Shown: piece after piece, positions 1,545 to 12,799 of the stretch
Layout: each line of letters starts with the position of its first letter
How positions within the stretch are numbered: position 1 is the first letter of the stretch
Assembly (NCBI GenBank): GCA_031275035.1
Contig: JAISPH010000146.1
Span: forward strand, 1-14,656
Origin: Treponema sp.
Lineage (GTDB): Bacteria; Spirochaetota; Spirochaetia; Treponematales; Breznakiellaceae
Direction: 5' to 3'
Length of the DNA: 14,656 nucleotides
Made by a program: the position numbers and the translations under genes
Notes under the pieces: model-generated
What the model was told of the DNA's origin: nothing
The model's database searches: none
Seen by the model: only the letters and a program-made list of their open reading frames with translations

Positions 1545-2429
1545 ATGTCCCGCAGTTTTACCTATACCGCTTTGATCCTCAGGGTGCGCCCCTCGGGGGA
1601 GTCCAACCGGGAAGCCTGGTTCCTTACCGCCGAAGAGGGTATACTCCGGGCTACGATTTTTGGAGGACCCAAAAGCCGGCTCCGGGCCCATGCGGCTCCT
1701 TATCATCAGGGACAGATCTGGATCTACCATGATCCGGTCCGGGATTCCCGGAAACTTGTCGATTTTGATGTCCGCCTGTGGAGGCCGGGCCTCCGGGAAC
1801 TCTACGAGCGGACCATGAGCGCCGGAGCTGTGGCCGAGACTATCCTGGCGGGATACGGCGGCGGCGGAAACTGGGAGGCCGCCCTTGCCATGGCGGAGAA
1901 AACCCTGGACGCCCTGGAGACGGCGGACGGTGAAAGCTGCGTCAGGATACTTATCCACTTTTTATGGAACTGGGCGGAACTTCTGGGACAGCGGCCGGAA
2001 CTGAACCGTTGCGCCTCCTGCGGGAATTCTCCCGGCGGCGGTGAAGAATATAAAGCTTGTGAAGAGGGGGGAGATGCCCTATTATGGTACTCACCGCAGG
2101 AGGGGACTTTGTTCTGCTCTTCCTGTGCGGGAAACTGCGTTACAAACAGTGCGGGAAACTGCGTTACAAATAGTGCGGGGAATTTCGCTGCAAAGGGCGG
2201 GAAAGACCACGCCGCCGGTAACAGAGAGGCGGAAGATCCCCGCCGGAGGCCGGGGCTTCTGCCCGTGGGTCCCGGTACCAGGCGCTGGCTCAACGCCGCT
2301 GGGAACCTGGACCCGGCCCTGTTGACCCGGTACACCCTGGACAGGACCGCCGGGAATGAGGCAAAGGCCTTGGTCATGGCGATACTCGCAGGGGCCTTCG
2401 GCAGGCGGCTTGCAAGCTGGGATTTTTAG
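1545..2429 (+). CDS. recO: DNA repair protein RecO with an internal repeat insertion
   Basis: RecO helps load RecA onto SSB-coated single-stranded DNA in the RecFOR pathway and anneals strands. An OB-fold-like N-terminus occupies roughly residues 5-80 (TALILRVRPSGESNREAWFLTAEEGIL...GPKSRL), followed by a helical region. A four-cysteine zinc site reads CASC (156-159) and CSSC (191-194). At 294 residues it is longer than the roughly 240-250 usual for the family. The excess sits directly after the second cysteine pair, where AGNCVTNS occurs twice, then AGNFAAKG, and AAGN recurs at 223 and 251. The C-terminal helix region (240-294) looks normal. A GGAG at 1535-1538 lies 6 nt before the ATG. The stop codon overlaps the Shine-Dalgarno of the next gene, so translation is probably coupled. 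Confidence 0.85.
   Translation: MSRSFTYTALILRVRPSGESNREAWFLTAEEGILRATIFGGPKSRLRAHAAPYHQGQIWIYHDPVRDSRKLVDFDVRLWRPGLRELYERTMSAGAVAETILAGYGGGGNWEAALAMAEKTLDALETADGESCVRILIHFLWNWAELLGQRPELNRCASCGNSPGGGEEYKACEEGGDALLWYSPQEGTLFCSSCAGNCVTNSAGNCVTNSAGNFAAKGGKDHAAGNREAEDPRRRPGLLPVGPGTRRWLNAAGNLDPALLTRYTLDRTAGNEAKALVMAILAGAFGRRLASWDF
2126..2197 (+). repeat. 24-bp tandem repeat (three units) inside recO
   Basis: Units span 2126-2149, 2150-2173 and 2174-2197. The first two differ at one base; the third has diverged. Each unit encodes eight residues (AGNCVTNS, AGNCVTNS, AGNFAAKG), so copy-number changes keep the frame. The array begins right after the second zinc-binding cysteine pair of RecO. Confidence 0.85.
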
Positions 2430-2438
2430 GAGAAGGAT

Positions 2439-3743
2439 ATGCGGGCGGTAGACATCATCATGGCGAAGCGTTCAGGAAAGGAACTTTCCCGGGAGGAGCT
2501 CCAATTTCTTATCGGCGGCTACACGGCGGGGGAAATCCCCGATTACCAAATCTCCGCCTGGGCCATGGCGGTATTTTTCCAGGGGATGAGCCCCGCCGAA
2601 ACCGCGGCGCTTACCGAGGTGATGCTCAAGTCCGGTTCTTCCATCGACCTTTCGGGTATTGCCGGCCCCTTTGTAGATAAACATTCCACCGGCGGCGTGG
2701 GGGATAAAACCAGCCTCATCCTGGCTCCGCTAATCGCATCCCTGGGAATCCGGGACCCCATGATGTCCGGCCGGGCTCTGGGCCACACCGGCGGCACCCT
2801 GGACAAACTTGAGGCCATTCCCGGTTACCGTACCAATCTGAGCGCGGAGGAATTCCGCAGGATCGTCGCCAGGGACGGCTTTGCGATGACGGGCCAGACC
2901 AGGGACATTGTCCCCGCGGACCGGCTTCTCTATGCCCTCCGGGATGTAACCGCTACGGTGGAATCCATTCCCCTCATCACCGCAAGCATACTTTCCAAGA
3001 AAGCCGCCGAAGGAGCGGAGGCCCTGGTCTTTGACGTAAAATTCGGATCCGGCGCCTTTATGAAGGATGCGGCGGACGGCGAAAGGCTTGCCCGGTCCCT
3101 GGTGGATACGGGAACCGCCATGGGTATGCGTATATGCGCCCTGCTGACGGATATGAACGAACCCCTGGGCAATATGGTGGGGAACTTTCTGGAGGTGGAG
3201 GAAAGCCTCGACTGCCTGGAGGGAAAGGGCCCGGCGGATCTGATGGAGGTAACCCTGGCCCTGGCCGCCCGGATGGCGGTTCTTGGGGGAAAGGCTGCGG
3301 ATGCGGAGGCAGGCCGCCGGCTCTGCGAAGAAGCCCTGGCCTCGGGAAAACCCCGGGAACTCTTTCTGGCAAATATAAGCAGCCAGGGGGGAGACGTAAA
3401 GCGTTTTCTCGAACTTCGCGGTTCCTGGAGGAGTCCCGTAAGCGGAGAGGTCCGGGCGGAACAATCCGGTTGTATCGCCCGGATCGATGCATGGAAGGTG
3501 GGCCATGCGGGGACGATGCTGGGGGTAGGGCGGAACCGTACCGAAGATGCGGTAAGTCCCACAGCGGGGGTGCGGTTCCACAAAAAGGGAGGCGCCCGGG
3601 TTAAACCGGGGGACCTGATCATGACCGTCTGGGCCAGGGATGAGGCGGGCCTCAAAGAAAGCCTTCCCCAGCTTGCGGCGGCGGTGGAATACGCCCCCGC
3701 CGCTCCGGGGCCCCGGCAACTGATACTTAAAGAAATTGTATAG
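2439..3743 (+). CDS. deoA: Thymidine/pyrimidine-nucleoside phosphorylase
   Basis: Splits pyrimidine (deoxy)nucleosides with phosphate, giving the free base and (deoxy)ribose-1-phosphate, for salvage and catabolism. The family signature is intact: VDKHSTGGVGDKTSL (79-93), the phosphate-binding region, and MMSGRALGHTGGTLDKLE (108-125). The active-site stretch YALRDVTATVESIPLITASILSKK contains the expected R, S and K. Length 434 matches B. subtilis Pdp (433), to which it aligns from the first residue. At position 108, where I recall Pdp-type enzymes having lysine and E. coli thymidine phosphorylase methionine, this protein has methionine. That favours thymidine/deoxyuridine over uridine, and is why I use deoA rather than pdp. 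A strong Shine-Dalgarno (AGGAGAAGG) overlaps the recO stop, and recJ follows 23 nt downstream. Confidence 0.9.
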   Translation: MRAVDIIMAKRSGKELSREELQFLIGGYTAGEIPDYQISAWAMAVFFQGMSPAETAALTEVMLKSGSSIDLSGIAGPFVDKHSTGGVGDKTSLILAPLIASLGIRDPMMSGRALGHTGGTLDKLEAIPGYRTNLSAEEFRRIVARDGFAMTGQTRDIVPADRLLYALRDVTATVESIPLITASILSKKAAEGAEALVFDVKFGSGAFMKDAADGERLARSLVDTGTAMGMRICALLTDMNEPLGNMVGNFLEVEESLDCLEGKGPADLMEVTLALAARMAVLGGKAADAEAGRRLCEEALASGKPRELFLANISSQGGDVKRFLELRGSWRSPVSGEVRAEQSGCIARIDAWKVGHAGTMLGVGRNRTEDAVSPTAGVRFHKKGGARVKPGDLIMTVWARDEAGLKESLPQLAAAVEYAPAAPGPRQLILKEIV

Positions 3744-3766: not shown

Positions 3767-5884
3767 ATGGATTGGGAAAAGAAAGACATAGCCCCGGAAC
3801 TGGTTAAAAATCTGGCCGCCAGGTACGGCTGCGATCTCCTGACCGCCTCGATTTTGGCGCGGCGGGGCGTTATCGAAGGGGAGGACATCCTCTACTATCT
3901 TGAAAACGATCCCCGGCATCTCAGAAACCCCTTCGATCTTCCCAATATGGAAGATGCGGTGGATCGCATCCTCGCCGCCAAAGAAGAGGGAGAAAAGGTG
4001 CTGGTCTTCGGGGACAGGGATGTGGACGGCATCACCAGCGCCTCGATGCTTACCAGCTTCCTTGCCCGTAACGGGATGGACGTTTCCTGGCGTATCCCCA
4101 CGGGGAATGAACCCTACGGCCTCTCCCTCAAGGCGGTGGAGGAATTTGCCGGCAGCGACGGAACCCTGATTATCACCGTGGACTGCGGCATCTCCAATGC
4201 CGCCGAAATCGCCAGGGCCTCGGAACTGGGCATCGACGTGGTGGTAACGGATCACCATACCCCGCCGGAAAAGCTCCCCGGCGCCCTGGCGCTGGTAAAC
4301 CCAAAGCTTCCGGGCTCCCGCTACCCCTTTCAGCATCTGGCCGGCTGCGGGGTCGCCTACAAACTGACAGCGGCCCTGCGCTTTGCCCTGAAGAGCGGAA
4401 TCTACGGCCAGCCCATCTGCCTCCTCAACATCCAGCCCGCCAACGACGCGTATATCATCGAGATCGCAAAGATGCGGAACCTCTCGGTCATCGACAAGCT
4501 CAGTGAAACGGTGATACCGGGCATGCTGGGCATAGGCGGGACCCGGCTTCCCGCCTTTCTTGAGGGTCAGCACATTGTAAGCTGGGACGCCCCCCTGCAG
4601 CGGAAGATGCTGGCGAAAATTTTCGGCGGCGGTTTTGAGATGCAGATGCTGGACCTTGCCCCGGAAATTGGGAAGGAGATAAAACAGACCGAGGGAAAGA
4701 GCCTCCTGAGGATACGGGAACTTTCCAAAATAGCCCGGTACGCCTCCTCCGCCCCGGGAGAGCTGGAAGTGTTCATCAATCTCTTTACCTCCTTTATTCA
4801 GCGGAAAGAAAAATTCTTTACCGACGAGGACATGACGGATCTCCAGCTTGCCGCCCTGGGAACCATCGCCGATATTATGCCCCTGAGGGACGAAAACCGC
4901 ATCATCGTCCGCTACGGCCTGGCCTCCCTTATCGCCAAACCCCGGCCCGGCCTTTCGGACCTGCTCTTCAAACTGGACCTGGCGGGAAAGCAGATTGGAA
5001 CCAGGGAGATCGCCTGGCAGCTCAGCCCGGTAATCAACGCCGCAGGCCGCATGGGAGACCCCGGCAAGGCGGTGCAGCTTCTTCTCTCTGCGGACCCGGA
5101 GGAACGGAACCGGCTGGCCGGGGAGATCCTCCTTATGAACGAAGAACGGAAAAAGCTGGTCAATGAAACCTGGGCCAGGGTGGAGCCCCAGGCCGCGGAG
5201 AGCCTGAAAACATACGGCGGCAAACTGGTGATGGTCTCCGGCGAAGAGATCTGCCGGGGCATCACGGGGCTGATTGCAAGCCGCCTTGGGGACCGGTTCC
5301 GGGTACCCTCGGCGGTGATCTCCTTCGGCGAAGACTGCGCCACCGGATCCCTCCGTTCCTCCAGGGGTTATAACATCCTGGCCGTTCTGGACCAGTGCGG
5401 GGATCTGTTCATCGATAAGGGGGGACATCCTTATGCGGCAGGTTTCAGCATGGACAAGGCCAACTGGGACGAGTTCCGGGAACGGCTTAAATTCACCGCG
5501 GAAACCATAGAACTGGGTCCCGACGAAGAGGCGGTCAGGGTGGATGCGGAACTTCCCCAGTCCTACCTTACCCCGGAGATCTTCAAAATTGTGGACCTCT
5601 TTGAACCCTACGGCCATGAAAACAACCCCCTTATCTTTCTGGCCCGGGGAATCAGGATCCTGGACATCAGCCTTATGGGAAAGCCCGATCCGGTTCATGT
5701 AAAACTGACCCTGGATGCGGGAAAGTATAAGTGGCCCGCGGTCTACTGGCGGGCGGTGGAGAAGGTAAAGCGGGACTTCGACATAAACGACAGGGTGGAT
5801 GCAGTCTTTACCCTCTGCCGGGACTGGTTCAACGGCATCGAGACCCCCCAGATCGTCGTTACCGATTTAAGGCGGAGCGCCTGA
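3767..5884 (+). CDS. recJ: Single-strand-specific 5'-3' exonuclease RecJ with an embedded DnaQ-like domain
   Basis: RecJ degrades single-stranded DNA 5' to 3' in recombination and mismatch repair, using two metal ions held by DHH-family motifs. All appear intact in this 705-residue protein: motif I GDRDVDGITS (82-91; the usual DYD is DRD, acids kept), TVDCGISN (137-144), TDHHTP (161-166), LGTIADIMPL with D369, SPVINAAGRM (420-429), and the DHHA1 end GGHPYAAGFS (552-561), followed by an OB-fold-like tail to 705. The odd part is an insertion at about 205-345, between motif III and D369, that reads as a degenerate DEDD exonuclease fold: IIEIAKMRNLSVIDKLSETVIPG (230-252), VSWDAPLQRKML (271-282), MLDLAPEI (294-301). 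A TTG at 3761 is also in frame, but AAAGGG at 3755-3760 is correctly spaced for the ATG at 3767. The stop overlaps the next ATG by one base. Confidence 0.93.
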   Translation: MDWEKKDIAPELVKNLAARYGCDLLTASILARRGVIEGEDILYYLENDPRHLRNPFDLPNMEDAVDRILAAKEEGEKVLVFGDRDVDGITSASMLTSFLARNGMDVSWRIPTGNEPYGLSLKAVEEFAGSDGTLIITVDCGISNAAEIARASELGIDVVVTDHHTPPEKLPGALALVNPKLPGSRYPFQHLAGCGVAYKLTAALRFALKSGIYGQPICLLNIQPANDAYIIEIAKMRNLSVIDKLSETVIPGMLGIGGTRLPAFLEGQHIVSWDAPLQRKMLAKIFGGGFEMQMLDLAPEIGKEIKQTEGKSLLRIRELSKIARYASSAPGELEVFINLFTSFIQRKEKFFTDEDMTDLQLAALGTIADIMPLRDENRIIVRYGLASLIAKPRPGLSDLLFKLDLAGKQIGTREIAWQLSPVINAAGRMGDPGKAVQLLLSADPEERNRLAGEILLMNEERKKLVNETWARVEPQAAESLKTYGGKLVMVSGEEICRGITGLIASRLGDRFRVPSAVISFGEDCATGSLRSSRGYNILAVLDQCGDLFIDKGGHPYAAGFSMDKANWDEFRERLKFTAETIELGPDEEAVRVDAELPQSYLTPEIFKIVDLFEPYGHENNPLIFLARGIRILDISLMGKPDPVHVKLTLDAGKYKWPAVYWRAVEKVKRDFDINDRVDAVFTLCRDWFNGIETPQIVVTDLRRSA

Positions 5885-9625: not shown

Positions 9626-10669
9626 TTACAGCGTCCCCGTAATGACGATCCGCTTGTGGCCGCCGCCATATACGGCCGGATTTCCATTGGCGCTGGTATC
9701 CGCCAGGACGCCCCAGACGGAGGTATAATTGCCTACCGCTCCTGCGGGTACATGGATGGTCAACGTACCGGAGCCGGTACTGTTAAACACACCTGTACCC
9801 AAACCCGGCGGAGAGGCCGGGAGGTTCAGCGCGGTCAGGGTGCTGCAGCCGCTGAAGGCAGAATCGCCGATAGCGACGGCCCGGGGGAGGTTTACCGTGG
9901 TAAGGGCGTCGCAGTTGTAGAAAGCCTGGTCGCTGATAGTTTCCGCCCGGGGGAGGTCTACCGTGGAAAGGGCGTCGCAGTAGAGGAAGGCGTAGTTGCC
10001 GATGTCAAGCGCCGACGGAAGGCTCACCGCCGCCAAAGAACTACAGCCGGCGAAAGCCTGATCGCCGATAGTTTCCGCCCGGGGGAGGTTTACCGTGGAG
10101 AGGGCGGCGCAGCTGTAGAAGGCAAATGAGCCGATAGTTTCCGCCCGGGGAAAGTTTACCGTGGTAAGGGCGGGACAGTCCCGGATGGAATGATCGCCGG
10201 CGGCGGTTACGTTGGCGCCGCCGACGCTTTCCAGGGCGGTAAAGTGCGAAAAGGCTGAATCCGGGGAAGAGCCGGGTACGACGCTGGCGGCCGTATTGGG
10301 AAGGACCAGGGATACGATTTTGTCTTTGCCGGTACTGTTTATTCTGTCGGGGTCGAAGGCCGTACCGGCCATGGTACAGGCGGAAAGGTCCAGGGCGACG
10401 TTCCTGCCCGCCTCGTCTATGGCGGTCAGGAGATCCGTCCAGCCGTTGCCGCCGGTATCCGGCAGGTAAAGGGCCGCCTTGAGGAGAACGGGATCGCCGG
10501 GGGCGGTGGAAAGATAGTCGATAATGGCCTCAATGCTGGTCAGCCCGGGGGACGCTTCATCCTCGTCCAGGGGAGAGGCAAGGCTCTTCATCCAGGGATT
10601 TCCACAGCCTCCCAGGACCAACCCGGCAAGAACCGGCAGCGCCAGGAGGGCAAGAACAGATTTCTTCAT
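9626..10669 (-). CDS. Lipoprotein with BspA-like leucine-rich repeats (LRR_5)
   Basis: Predicted envelope or surface lipoprotein; BspA-like repeats often mediate adhesion, but the ligand here is unknown. An N-terminal signal (MKKSVLALLALPVLAGLVLGGC) ends in the spirochete-style lipobox LGGC with lipidated C22. An unremarkable region (about 40-140) precedes repeats of 22 residues with the form L-x-x-V-x-LPRAETIGDQAFxxC, from about 164 to 284 (anchor prolines at 174, 196, 218, 240, 262 and 284). The C-terminal beta-rich tail begins TLTIHVPAGAVGNY. A Shine-Dalgarno (AAAGGCGGA) lies 4 nt before the ATG. The gene starts 12 nt after the small exported beta-barrel-like gene, so the two form an operon. 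Such proteins come in large families in related treponemes. Confidence 0.88.
   Translation of the reverse strand: MKKSVLALLALPVLAGLVLGGCGNPWMKSLASPLDEDEASPGLTSIEAIIDYLSTAPGDPVLLKAALYLPDTGGNGWTDLLTAIDEAGRNVALDLSACTMAGTAFDPDRINSTGKDKIVSLVLPNTAASVVPGSSPDSAFSHFTALESVGGANVTAAGDHSIRDCPALTTVNFPRAETIGSFAFYSCAALSTVNLPRAETIGDQAFAGCSSLAAVSLPSALDIGNYAFLYCDALSTVDLPRAETISDQAFYNCDALTTVNLPRAVAIGDSAFSGCSTLTALNLPASPPGLGTGVFNSTGSGTLTIHVPAGAVGNYTSVWGVLADTSANGNPAVYGGGHKRIVITGTL
9815..10180 (-). repeat. 66-bp coding repeats of the LRR lipoprotein
   Basis: About five 66-bp units encode 22-residue repeats. On the plus strand the block gatagtttccgcccggg recurs at 9935, 10067 and 10133, that is, at multiples of 66. 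The near-identity of some units suggests recent duplication or conversion, and the period keeps the frame. Confidence 0.8.
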
Positions 10670-11393: not shown

Positions 11394-12719
11394 TTAGGGC
11401 AGCTCCAGCAGCAGGGCCCCGCTTTTGGAGTCCCGCCTTTCCCCGGCGGGCAGGGGCAGTTCCAGCAGCGTCCCCGAATGAAGCCCCCCTGGCATGGAAG
11501 CCGACGGCACGGAGGCCGCCGGTACGGACACCACCAGGACAAGCCCTTCGGCGGAACAGCCGTACCTGCCCAGTCTTTGCTTTTGCCCCGGCATGGAGGC
11601 TGACGGCATGGAAGCCGATGGCAGGGATGCCGCCGGCACGGACGCCGGTATGGGAAAGGGATCGGAGATGATCCGCACCGCCAGGCTCCGGCGGACCGCG
11701 GAAACCGCCGGCATGGAGGCCGCCGGCACGGATGCCGCCGCTCCGGCGTCTTCCCCCCTGCTGGCGCCCCCGGAGCGGGGACCCGCCAGCAGAAAACTGA
11801 GGACGGCCCGTTCCTTGGGGATTCCCGCGGCGGCGGAAAGCCGGTGAAGGTTCTTGGGCGCATCGCCGGTTTCAAAGGCGAAATGGCACCACTTTGCCCT
11901 GCCCCGTCCCCTGCCGGGATTTCCCGGCAGGGGGCAGTTTCCGCCGTGGAGACAGGGCGCAAGGGGCGGCCTGCCCCGGTCAAGCAGCGCGGACCGGAGG
12001 GCGGCGATGAACGCCCCGGACCGGGGCAGGCCCGGCTCCACAACCAGGATGGAGCCCTCCTCCCGGCAGAGGGCGGCGAGCCGGACGGCGGCCCGCTCCC
12101 CCTCCCCGGAAACGGTACGGACCTCGTTAAACATATTAACCGCCGTAACCAGCTTTGCCCTGCCGCCGGAAAGGGGGGCATCCCATGCGCTCCGTATGGT
12201 CTTAATCGTCCACCGCCCTGCCCCGCCGCCGGCATGGACGGCTCCGCCGGAATTTACGGATGCTGACGGCATGGACGCCGCCGGCACGGATGCCGCCTCT
12301 GCGGAAAGTCCGCCCAAGGCCAGGGCTTCGAAGATCCTCTTCCCCGCCTCCAGAACGGCGCCGGTCCGGTCAACGCAGCGGAACTCAAGCCTGAGCCCCC
12401 GCAGCTCAGGCCGGGCTGTCCACAGAGCGATGGGCAGGGTCAGGGGGCCGGAGCCAAGATCGATTATCCCGTCCCCCTCCGCCAGGGACAGGTCCCAGCC
12501 GGGGGAGGAAAAAAGCCGGCAGAGGCGGTAAACATTCCAGGGAAGAAAATAGTGAAGATAGGCGGAGAGCAGGCCGGGCCTGCCCAGATAACCCCCGTCC
12601 CGCTCACTCCGGCCGCTGGTAAGTAGCCGGGAAAGCTCCGCCACATCCGCCTCAAGCCGGGAACGGAAACGCCGGGGTACGGGGAAGATCCTGTCCACCA
12701 GGGGGATAAGGCCTTCCAT
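11394..12719 (-). CDS. Rsm22-type small-subunit rRNA methyltransferase-like protein with repeat insertions
   Basis: Resembles Rsm22/METTL17, SAM-methyltransferase-fold proteins linked to small-ribosomal-subunit assembly. In this 441-residue protein the SAM motif is GIIDLGSGPLTLPIA (84-98), followed by the acidic strand end CVD (115-117) and VNMFNEVR (194-201). The family cysteine motif reads APCLHGGNCPL (254-264) and WCHF (277-280); with C388 (LGRYGC) it gives four cysteines (256, 262, 278, 388) that fit the reported 4Fe-4S site. Four blocks of an S-[VM]-P-[AS]-A pentapeptide repeat interrupt the protein, at about 143-154, 328-338, 359-377 and 397-410. Removing them restores a continuous family-like sequence such as DPFPIPGQKQRLGRYGC. 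The open frame reaches back to a TTG at 12788, but ATG 12719 begins the conserved part, so I prefer it. A GGAG lies 11 nt before it. Ferritin ends 80 nt upstream on the same strand. Confidence 0.72.
   Translation of the reverse strand: MEGLIPLVDRIFPVPRRFRSRLEADVAELSRLLTSGRSERDGGYLGRPGLLSAYLHYFLPWNVYRLCRLFSSPGWDLSLAEGDGIIDLGSGPLTLPIALWTARPELRGLRLEFRCVDRTGAVLEAGKRIFEALALGGLSAEAASVPAASMPSASVNSGGAVHAGGGAGRWTIKTIRSAWDAPLSGGRAKLVTAVNMFNEVRTVSGEGERAAVRLAALCREEGSILVVEPGLPRSGAFIAALRSALLDRGRPPLAPCLHGGNCPLPGNPGRGRGRAKWCHFAFETGDAPKNLHRLSAAAGIPKERAVLSFLLAGPRSGGASRGEDAGAAASVPAASMPAVSAVRRSLAVRIISDPFPIPASVPAASLPSASMPSASMPGQKQRLGRYGCSAEGLVLVVSVPAASVPSASMPGGLHSGTLLELPLPAGERRDSKSGALLLELP
11492..11530 (-). repeat. 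SVPAA repeat block A in the Rsm22-like gene
   Basis: Encodes SVPAASVPSASMP. It is built from 15-bp units of plus-strand form ggcatggaagccgac. It interrupts what would otherwise read LVLVVGGLHSGTLLELP near the C-terminus. Confidence 0.8.
11590..11654 (-). repeat. SVPAA repeat block B (longest) in the Rsm22-like gene
   Basis: Encodes ASVPAASLPSASMPSASMP, about four 15-bp units. It splits DPFPIP from GQKQRLGRYGC, just before the likely fourth cluster cysteine. Confidence 0.8.
11707..11739 (-). repeat. SVPAA repeat block C in the Rsm22-like gene
   Basis: Encodes ASVPAASMPA, about two units, in the loop between the cysteine-motif domain and the RRSLAVRIIS strand. Confidence 0.75.
12256..12297 (-). 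repeat. SVPAA repeat block D in the Rsm22-like gene
   Basis: Encodes ASVPAASMPSASV inside the methyltransferase fold, between the CVDRTGAVLEAGKRIFEAL helix and the next strand (WTIKTI). It shares almost the same bases as block C although it lies more than 500 bp away. Confidence 0.78.
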
Positions 12720-12799
12720 GATACTGCGGGCTCCGGCCCCCAGGGGCGGGAAGAGGGGCGCGCCGGAGGAAGCGCGGGGTCCGGGCAAGAAAGCGCCGG

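Follow-up and report, generated by a model that had tools for sequence, protein, structure and literature searches.

Bacterial RecJ, DEDDh exonucleases, DinG fusions and the insertions of Cdc45 are already known. DEDDh exonucleases (the exonuclease of PolC, Pol III epsilon/DnaQ, the exonuclease of Staphylococcus aureus DinG, RNase T) are found in a polymerase, in a helicase or as standalone proteins. Cdc45 and archaeal GAN are DHH-family proteins with a large insertion; in Cdc45, however, it is the DHH nuclease that is inactive, and the inserted part is of a different type. These insertions are placed between the DHH domain and the C-lobe of CDC45 in the available part of PMC4846377. Here, the recJ gene of a termite-gut-type spirochaete, Treponema sp., was analysed in a stretch of 14,656 nucleotides (assembly GCA_031275035.1, contig JAISPH010000146.1; hereafter the window). 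Its RecJ contains an insert that is absent from the solved forms of Deinococcus radiodurans (5f55), Thermus thermophilus (2zxo) and S. aureus (8y30). As in Cdc45 and GAN, a DHH-family protein carries a large insertion but, unlike Cdc45, the window RecJ retains the residues of its DHH nuclease while the insert has lost its own. The insert is predicted to share the fold of DEDDh exonucleases, from which it differs in lying inside RecJ and in lacking the DEDD acids, the His and a Pfam match. With good confidence, we consider that a DEDDh domain was inserted once into RecJ, stayed intact in some lines, lost its acids in the lineage of the window and was kept there for binding.

3767..5884, plus strand: recJ, 705 amino acids, DHH and DHHA1 nuclease core plus OB domain (TIGR00644, Pfam)
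4382..4834, plus strand: embedded putative pseudo-exonuclease domain, RecJ residues about 206-356

The window protein is identified as a bacterial RecJ by its full-length match to TIGR00644 (E 1.7e-158; 528.3 bits against a cut-off of 396.9) and by its catalytic motifs. Pfam detects DHH, DHHA1 and RecJ_OB, with nothing beyond the OB domain at the C-terminus. RecJ's own catalytic residues, D83, D85, D139, D162, H163, H164 (the DHH motif at 162-164) and D369, are invariant in all 164 rows of the clade alignment, which comprises 153 distinct sequences, some genomes having been reached twice, and omits L007 and L065 (too short) and L136 (no RecJ). The gene starts at ATG 3767 and ends at 5884; the list of open reading frames gives TTG 3761 as its start, a possible alternative. 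Counting from M1 = 3767, the positions named in the first-pass annotation (DHH 162-164, N221, Q223, Q278, D369) are correct, as is its claim of extra residues between the DHH motif and D369, since solved RecJs align to the window protein as two blocks with a gap between them. In the PDB sequence search, these blocks correspond to query residues 60-204 and 357-642 for 5f54, 21-205 and 362-703 for 8y30, and 60-206 and 360-625 for 1ir6, in a numbering one above that used here. Some 150 residues of the window RecJ have no counterpart in PDB RecJ sequences, and the compared stretch measures 156 residues in the window against 14-23 in five outgroup RecJs from plasmid records.

Direct searches with the insert gave no match among Pfam or NCBIfam models, its profile matched no PDB sequence, and none of nine members of the related set matched PF00929 (RNase_T). 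These searches yielded nothing useful as a route to the identity of the insert. One of the nine related inserts showed a TruB-C_2 match at E 0.15 only. The exonuclease reading is not decidable from sequence alone; it was settled by structure and by intermediate sequences. When the insert was modelled on its own, 49 of the 50 VIA-align rows shown were DEDD-type exonucleases or domains, judged by their titles and families, the remaining row being titled ESRP1 RNaseH. The full-length model retrieved RecJ-family structures, related DHH-family phosphodiesterase/nanoRNase structures and Cdc45. The predicted model thus places the insert in the DEDD exonuclease superfamily (RNase H-like DnaQ fold), as the first-pass annotation had proposed from motif order, and the proposal gains further support from profile similarity above controls and from intact domains at the same site.

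These intact domains came to light in RecJs retrieved from 30 genomes, almost all of which lack a treponeme-type match. L214, L221 and L222 display DIETTG...GHN...FD...H-x4-D at the same RecJ site; L213 (same protein as L256) is also intact and had been missed by a simple motif search. A protein search with the L222 insert returned 483 proteins, the best 120 of which include 19 RecJs: P0121-P0138 top the listing, the three named ones all being Brevinematales, and P0190 stands lower; most of the remaining entries are PolC-type exonucleases. Identity between the L222 (Brevinematales) insert and the non-RecJ proteins listed, mostly PolC-type, is 37-47%. The phylum was also scanned with three intact inserts, and reading of the 30 returned loci gave 16 genomes with such RecJs, G037 being a 17th that appears in the scan list only. 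All exonuclease motifs are present in 15 of the 16 loci, the 16th being cut off, and also in the 19 listed proteins; L252 has GQN in place of GHN, and the frame of L254 is short (638 amino acids) and lacks RecJ motif I as read. Pfam detects PF00929 inside RecJ for L222 (E 1.2e-33 for its insert) and P0190 (3e-42), and in the L214 insert (5e-37). This family match, together with the catalytic residues, makes the Brevinematales-type inserts DEDDh (PF00929) members, and in Brevinematales and two other deep lines both RecJ active sites look intact.

Profile comparisons, also suggested in the first-pass annotation, extended the similarity of the treponeme-type inserts to DEDDh domains outside RecJ. 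With hhalign, the profile of the 164 inserts scored 28.7 (E 5e-4, probability 30%) against 101 non-RecJ DEDDh domains, mostly PolC-type, and 33.2 (E 9e-5, probability 59%) against 17 Brevinematales inserts. The corresponding controls reached 12.4 and 12.6 with one reversed template each, and 23.9 and 22.0 as the best of 100 column shuffles each, while five RecJ core segments scored 12-18. The intact inserts of L243, L254 and L256 act as a bridge to the treponeme inserts (P 90, E 1.4e-6), to which the insert edge may contribute. Borrelia-like inserts (a presumptive label) match treponeme inserts at P 99.4 and show no direct profile signal with real exonucleases. That direct profile similarity is weak, and that Foldseek with the insert also lists integrases, EndoV and RuvX, might favour an alpha/beta domain, RNase H-like or of another type, that is unrelated to the Brevinematales exonuclease and was acquired independently. 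Considering that (i) the insertion site is identical, (ii) the VIA-align rows shown contain DEDD-type nucleases and no integrases, (iii) profile scores lie above all shuffles and (iv) the bridge profile reaches the E value just given, such an origin appears highly improbable.

4427..4435, plus strand: former motif ExoI, N221-I-Q223 in place of D-x-E (hhalign register with Brevinematales 'DIE')
4583..4600, plus strand: former motif ExoII, W273-D274-A-P-L-Q278 in place of H-N-x-x-x-D (secondary structure, column counts)
4745..4762, plus strand: former motif ExoIII, S327 for the catalytic His and E332 for the last Asp (column counts, helix start)

The former catalytic positions were located by reference to S. 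aureus DinG. According to the available part of PMC12345164, its ligands are D-x-E where strand 1 ends, D where the helix following strand 4 begins, and H and D where the final helix begins; another His closes strand 4. The window counterparts of these ligands are N221, Q223, Q278, S327 and E332, W273 standing at the end of strand 4. The ExoII remnant lies at the end of strand 269-272 and the start of helix 275-286, and E332 at the start of helix 332-348. The Brevinematales hhalign alignment supports the N221/Q223 register but is shifted at motif II, the assignment of Q278 being based on strand/helix boundaries and on the W273-to-Q278 spacing. Among the 164 rows, the N221 column contains N in 118, H in 26 and D in three; that of Q223, R in 119, E in 11 and Q in nine; that of Q278, Q in 120, E in 20 and H in nine; and that of E332, E in 154 and D in five. 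D274 is D in 154 rows, and the former His position (S327) is mostly D, E, S or G. The 153 distinct sequences give the same columns (N 108, R 109, Q 110, E 143). The commonest four-position set, N-R-Q-E, occurs in 93 rows, and D, E, D, D together in none, so that the window insert lacks the DEDDh catalytic residues. The metal-ligand loss claimed in the first-pass annotation therefore extends to all 164 rows, and its N221, Q223 and Q278 were rightly placed; it had missed, however, that the fourth acid is kept as Glu (E332), and the Gln that it read at the E position, true for the window, is not typical, as Arg occupies it in 119 rows.

Nine inserts (L113, L114, L119, L120, L121, L123, L128, L157, L163) read H-E-E-E where the four acids once stood, which might form an altered metal site. 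If such a site, or E332 with other residues, still allowed the insert to cut, treponeme RecJ would be two-headed. Glu at E332 in nearly all rows, Glu at three of the four positions in these nine, and the purifying selection described below are in line with this, which we nonetheless judge very improbable: in the window and most relatives, the remaining three positions are occupied by N, by Q or R, and by Q, the general-base His is absent, and DEDDh enzymes bind two metals through the acids, as the accessible text of PMC12345164 states for S. aureus DinG. The treponeme-type insert is thus presumably catalytically dead; a domain with its ligands so replaced should no longer cut, while RecJ's own site is unchanged. 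The Arg that most relatives have instead of the metal-binding Glu would fit metal-free phosphate binding.

A search with the insert region gave 415 proteins, the best 120 of which are 516-740 amino acids long and, where organisms are named, come from Treponema, Breznakiella, Spirochaetaceae or Spirochaetia; the 80 loci kept from 120 relatives in a genome scan all bear these same titles. The insert matched in 174 of 392 Spirochaetota genomes (E 0.01) and RecJ in 382. One of the 174, G183 (locus L136, E 0.0076), was discarded as not being RecJ. How far the insert extends among spirochaetes and whether any copies keep the acids, both raised in the first-pass annotation, are answered in part by this count and by the intact residues in 15 genomes.

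Mean pairwise identity is 0.45 for the insert, 0.46 for the second core half, 0.47 for the OB domain and 0.61 for the DHH region; in distant pairs (DHH identity 0.4-0.5), the insert falls behind the core (0.28 against 0.36). Between the window and L001, nonsynonymous over synonymous divergence (dN/dS) is 0.026/0.412 for the insert and 0.053/0.334 for the core. In four more distant pairs, with dS near or above 1, the ratio of the insert is lower in three and about equal in one. Therefore, the insert is not decaying freely and is under purifying selection. Such constraint might only reflect a passive spacer or lid, kept for RecJ folding or stability and without a binding role, and both the shorter, diverged same-site inserts of other lineages and the faster divergence of the insert relative to the core among distant treponeme pairs point that way. 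We consider this rather unlikely, because the insert has a lower dN/dS than the core in the closest pair, and because R260, W273, D274, E318 and Y325 are among the insert residues invariant in 132 near relatives. Retention as a binding module would most likely serve to hold the phosphates of single-stranded DNA, or a repair partner, next to the RecJ nuclease. Partner binding is plausible because the window RecJ, which ends after the OB domain, lacks the C-terminal domain by which D. radiodurans RecJ binds SSB (available part of PMC4846377).

The order of events was evaluated on a RecJ core tree without the insert (57 rows, 562 columns), in which treponeme rows were thinned from 34 to 12 and L211 (no insert, grouping with outgroups), L224, L228 and the duplicate L213 were left out. 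P0190 branches first (96/80), followed by L243/L254/L256 (94/89), with the Brevinematales-type clade further in. On this tree the intact state needs three changes, at least two of which are forced by the starred branches; intact rows formed one clade in none of 200 bootstrap trees, and constraining them together was rejected (approximately unbiased test, p 0.007). One insertion followed by two or more losses is the simplest reading. In the scenario that we favour, a PolC-related DEDDh 3'-5' exonuclease domain would have entered the RecJ loop between the DHH region and motif IV once, early in spirochaetes. RecJs of Brevinematales and the two deep lines may trim single strands from both ends, and in the window lineage (Treponema/Breznakiella type, shared with Borrelia-like RecJs) the acids D, E, D and D would have become N, R or Q, Q and E, respectively.

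This history calls for some caution: the same deep forks are weak in FastTree, many tree rows differ in composition, several branches are long, and profile comparison found no sequence relation for the shorter inserts L218/L219/L227, L223/L228, L230/L231 and L232-L234. The relation is weak or partial for L212/L215/L220, L216/L217, L225 and L226/L229. With four groups showing no detectable relation and four a weak or partial one, it is not claimed that every same-site insert of spirochaetes is an eroded exonuclease. The inserts of L216 and L217 (genomes G026 and G013), of 187 and 189 residues, start with a D-x-E-like stretch (VLDYEID), and resemble Brevinematales inserts weakly (P 3.7), though over 156 columns. 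In G037, L211 is a RecJ without insert, either a foreign gene or contamination, and the same genome also lists a 722-residue frame that matches RecJ weakly and contains an RNase_T-like stretch.

A further proposal would make the deep-branching, two-headed RecJ (5'-3' DHH plus 3'-5' DEDDh) double as a DnaQ-type proofreader or 3'-end exonuclease; after a separate DnaQ took over, the RecJ copy would have decayed to a pseudo-enzyme retained for binding. It is suggested because the RecJ insert is the sole RNase_T domain found in most intact-insert genomes. Of the 15 genomes in which an intact insert was verified, 12 show just one PF00929 match at E 0.001 and three (G029, G040, G098) show two. The single match lies at the RecJ place in nine (G016, G018, G041, G049, G070, G077, G083, G103, G108) and probably in G030, G093 and G123 too; G018 has an additional weak match (E 0.005) with a stop inside. 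Of the 174 genomes with a match to the treponeme-type insert, 171 contain PF00929 domains, which are taken as separate from it because none of the nine scanned inserts matches PF00929, a distribution that fits a take-over by a separate DnaQ. On the other side, both an intact insert and a PF00929 match at E 0.001 are missing from G013 and G026, PF00929 has no match at all in 99 of the 392 genomes, five Borrelia-like genomes have only a weak one, in a long frame elsewhere, and the twelve single-match genomes represent two clades only (11 and 1). As a whole, this proposal is unlikely. Placing the weak RNase_T matches of Borrelia-like genomes in RecJ was dropped, the five examined lying elsewhere, in frames of 923-932 amino acids that are probably PolA.

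1545..2429, plus strand: recO (Pfam RecO_N, RecO_C), upstream of recJ
2439..3743, plus strand: pyrimidine-nucleoside phosphorylase gene, deoA-like (Pfam), directly upstream of recJ

Among related loci with room, recO is found upstream of recJ in 38 of 62 and the deoA-like gene in 39 of 66. Upstream of recO, a gene at 194-1522 joins amino-acid-kinase and GNAT acetyltransferase domains in an argA-like layout (Pfam), and the RecO frame contains repeats (AGNCVTNSAGNCVTNSAGN) at 2127-2183, beside zinc-finger-like cysteines. On the minus strand, a predicted protein at 11394-12788 has at least four copies of an S-V-P-A-A-S-M-P-like stretch, and a predicted lipoprotein-like open reading frame at 9626-10669 displays regular repeats similar to BspA-type leucine-rich repeats.

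No description of a DEDDh exonuclease inside the RecJ core, intact or acid-less, was found in searches of one open-access library, and the available parts of PMC7776575, PMC2779866, PMC5956850, PMC12345164 and PMC4846377 do not describe the insert. In the portion of PMC2779866 at hand, Borrelia burgdorferi recJ could be disrupted, which at day 21 lowered infectivity in mice, while no clear part in vlsE switching emerged, and the insert is not mentioned there; similarly, the accessible part of a structural-modelling survey of the syphilis spirochaete (PMC5956850) names RecJ without comment on an insert. The RecJ-exonuclease architecture is visible in precomputed Pfam domain lists, and database users may have noticed it.

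The RecJ family offers an ordered series, from RecJs without insert (outgroups) through those with an apparently intact second nuclease (Brevinematales and others) to a conserved acid-less copy (Treponema, Borrelia-like), and therefore it becomes directly testable how an enzyme domain is converted to a binding module. The series also predicts bidirectional single-strand exonucleases contained in one polypeptide, and the RecJ of the window's spirochaete clade should not be modelled on that of E. coli or Deinococcus alone.
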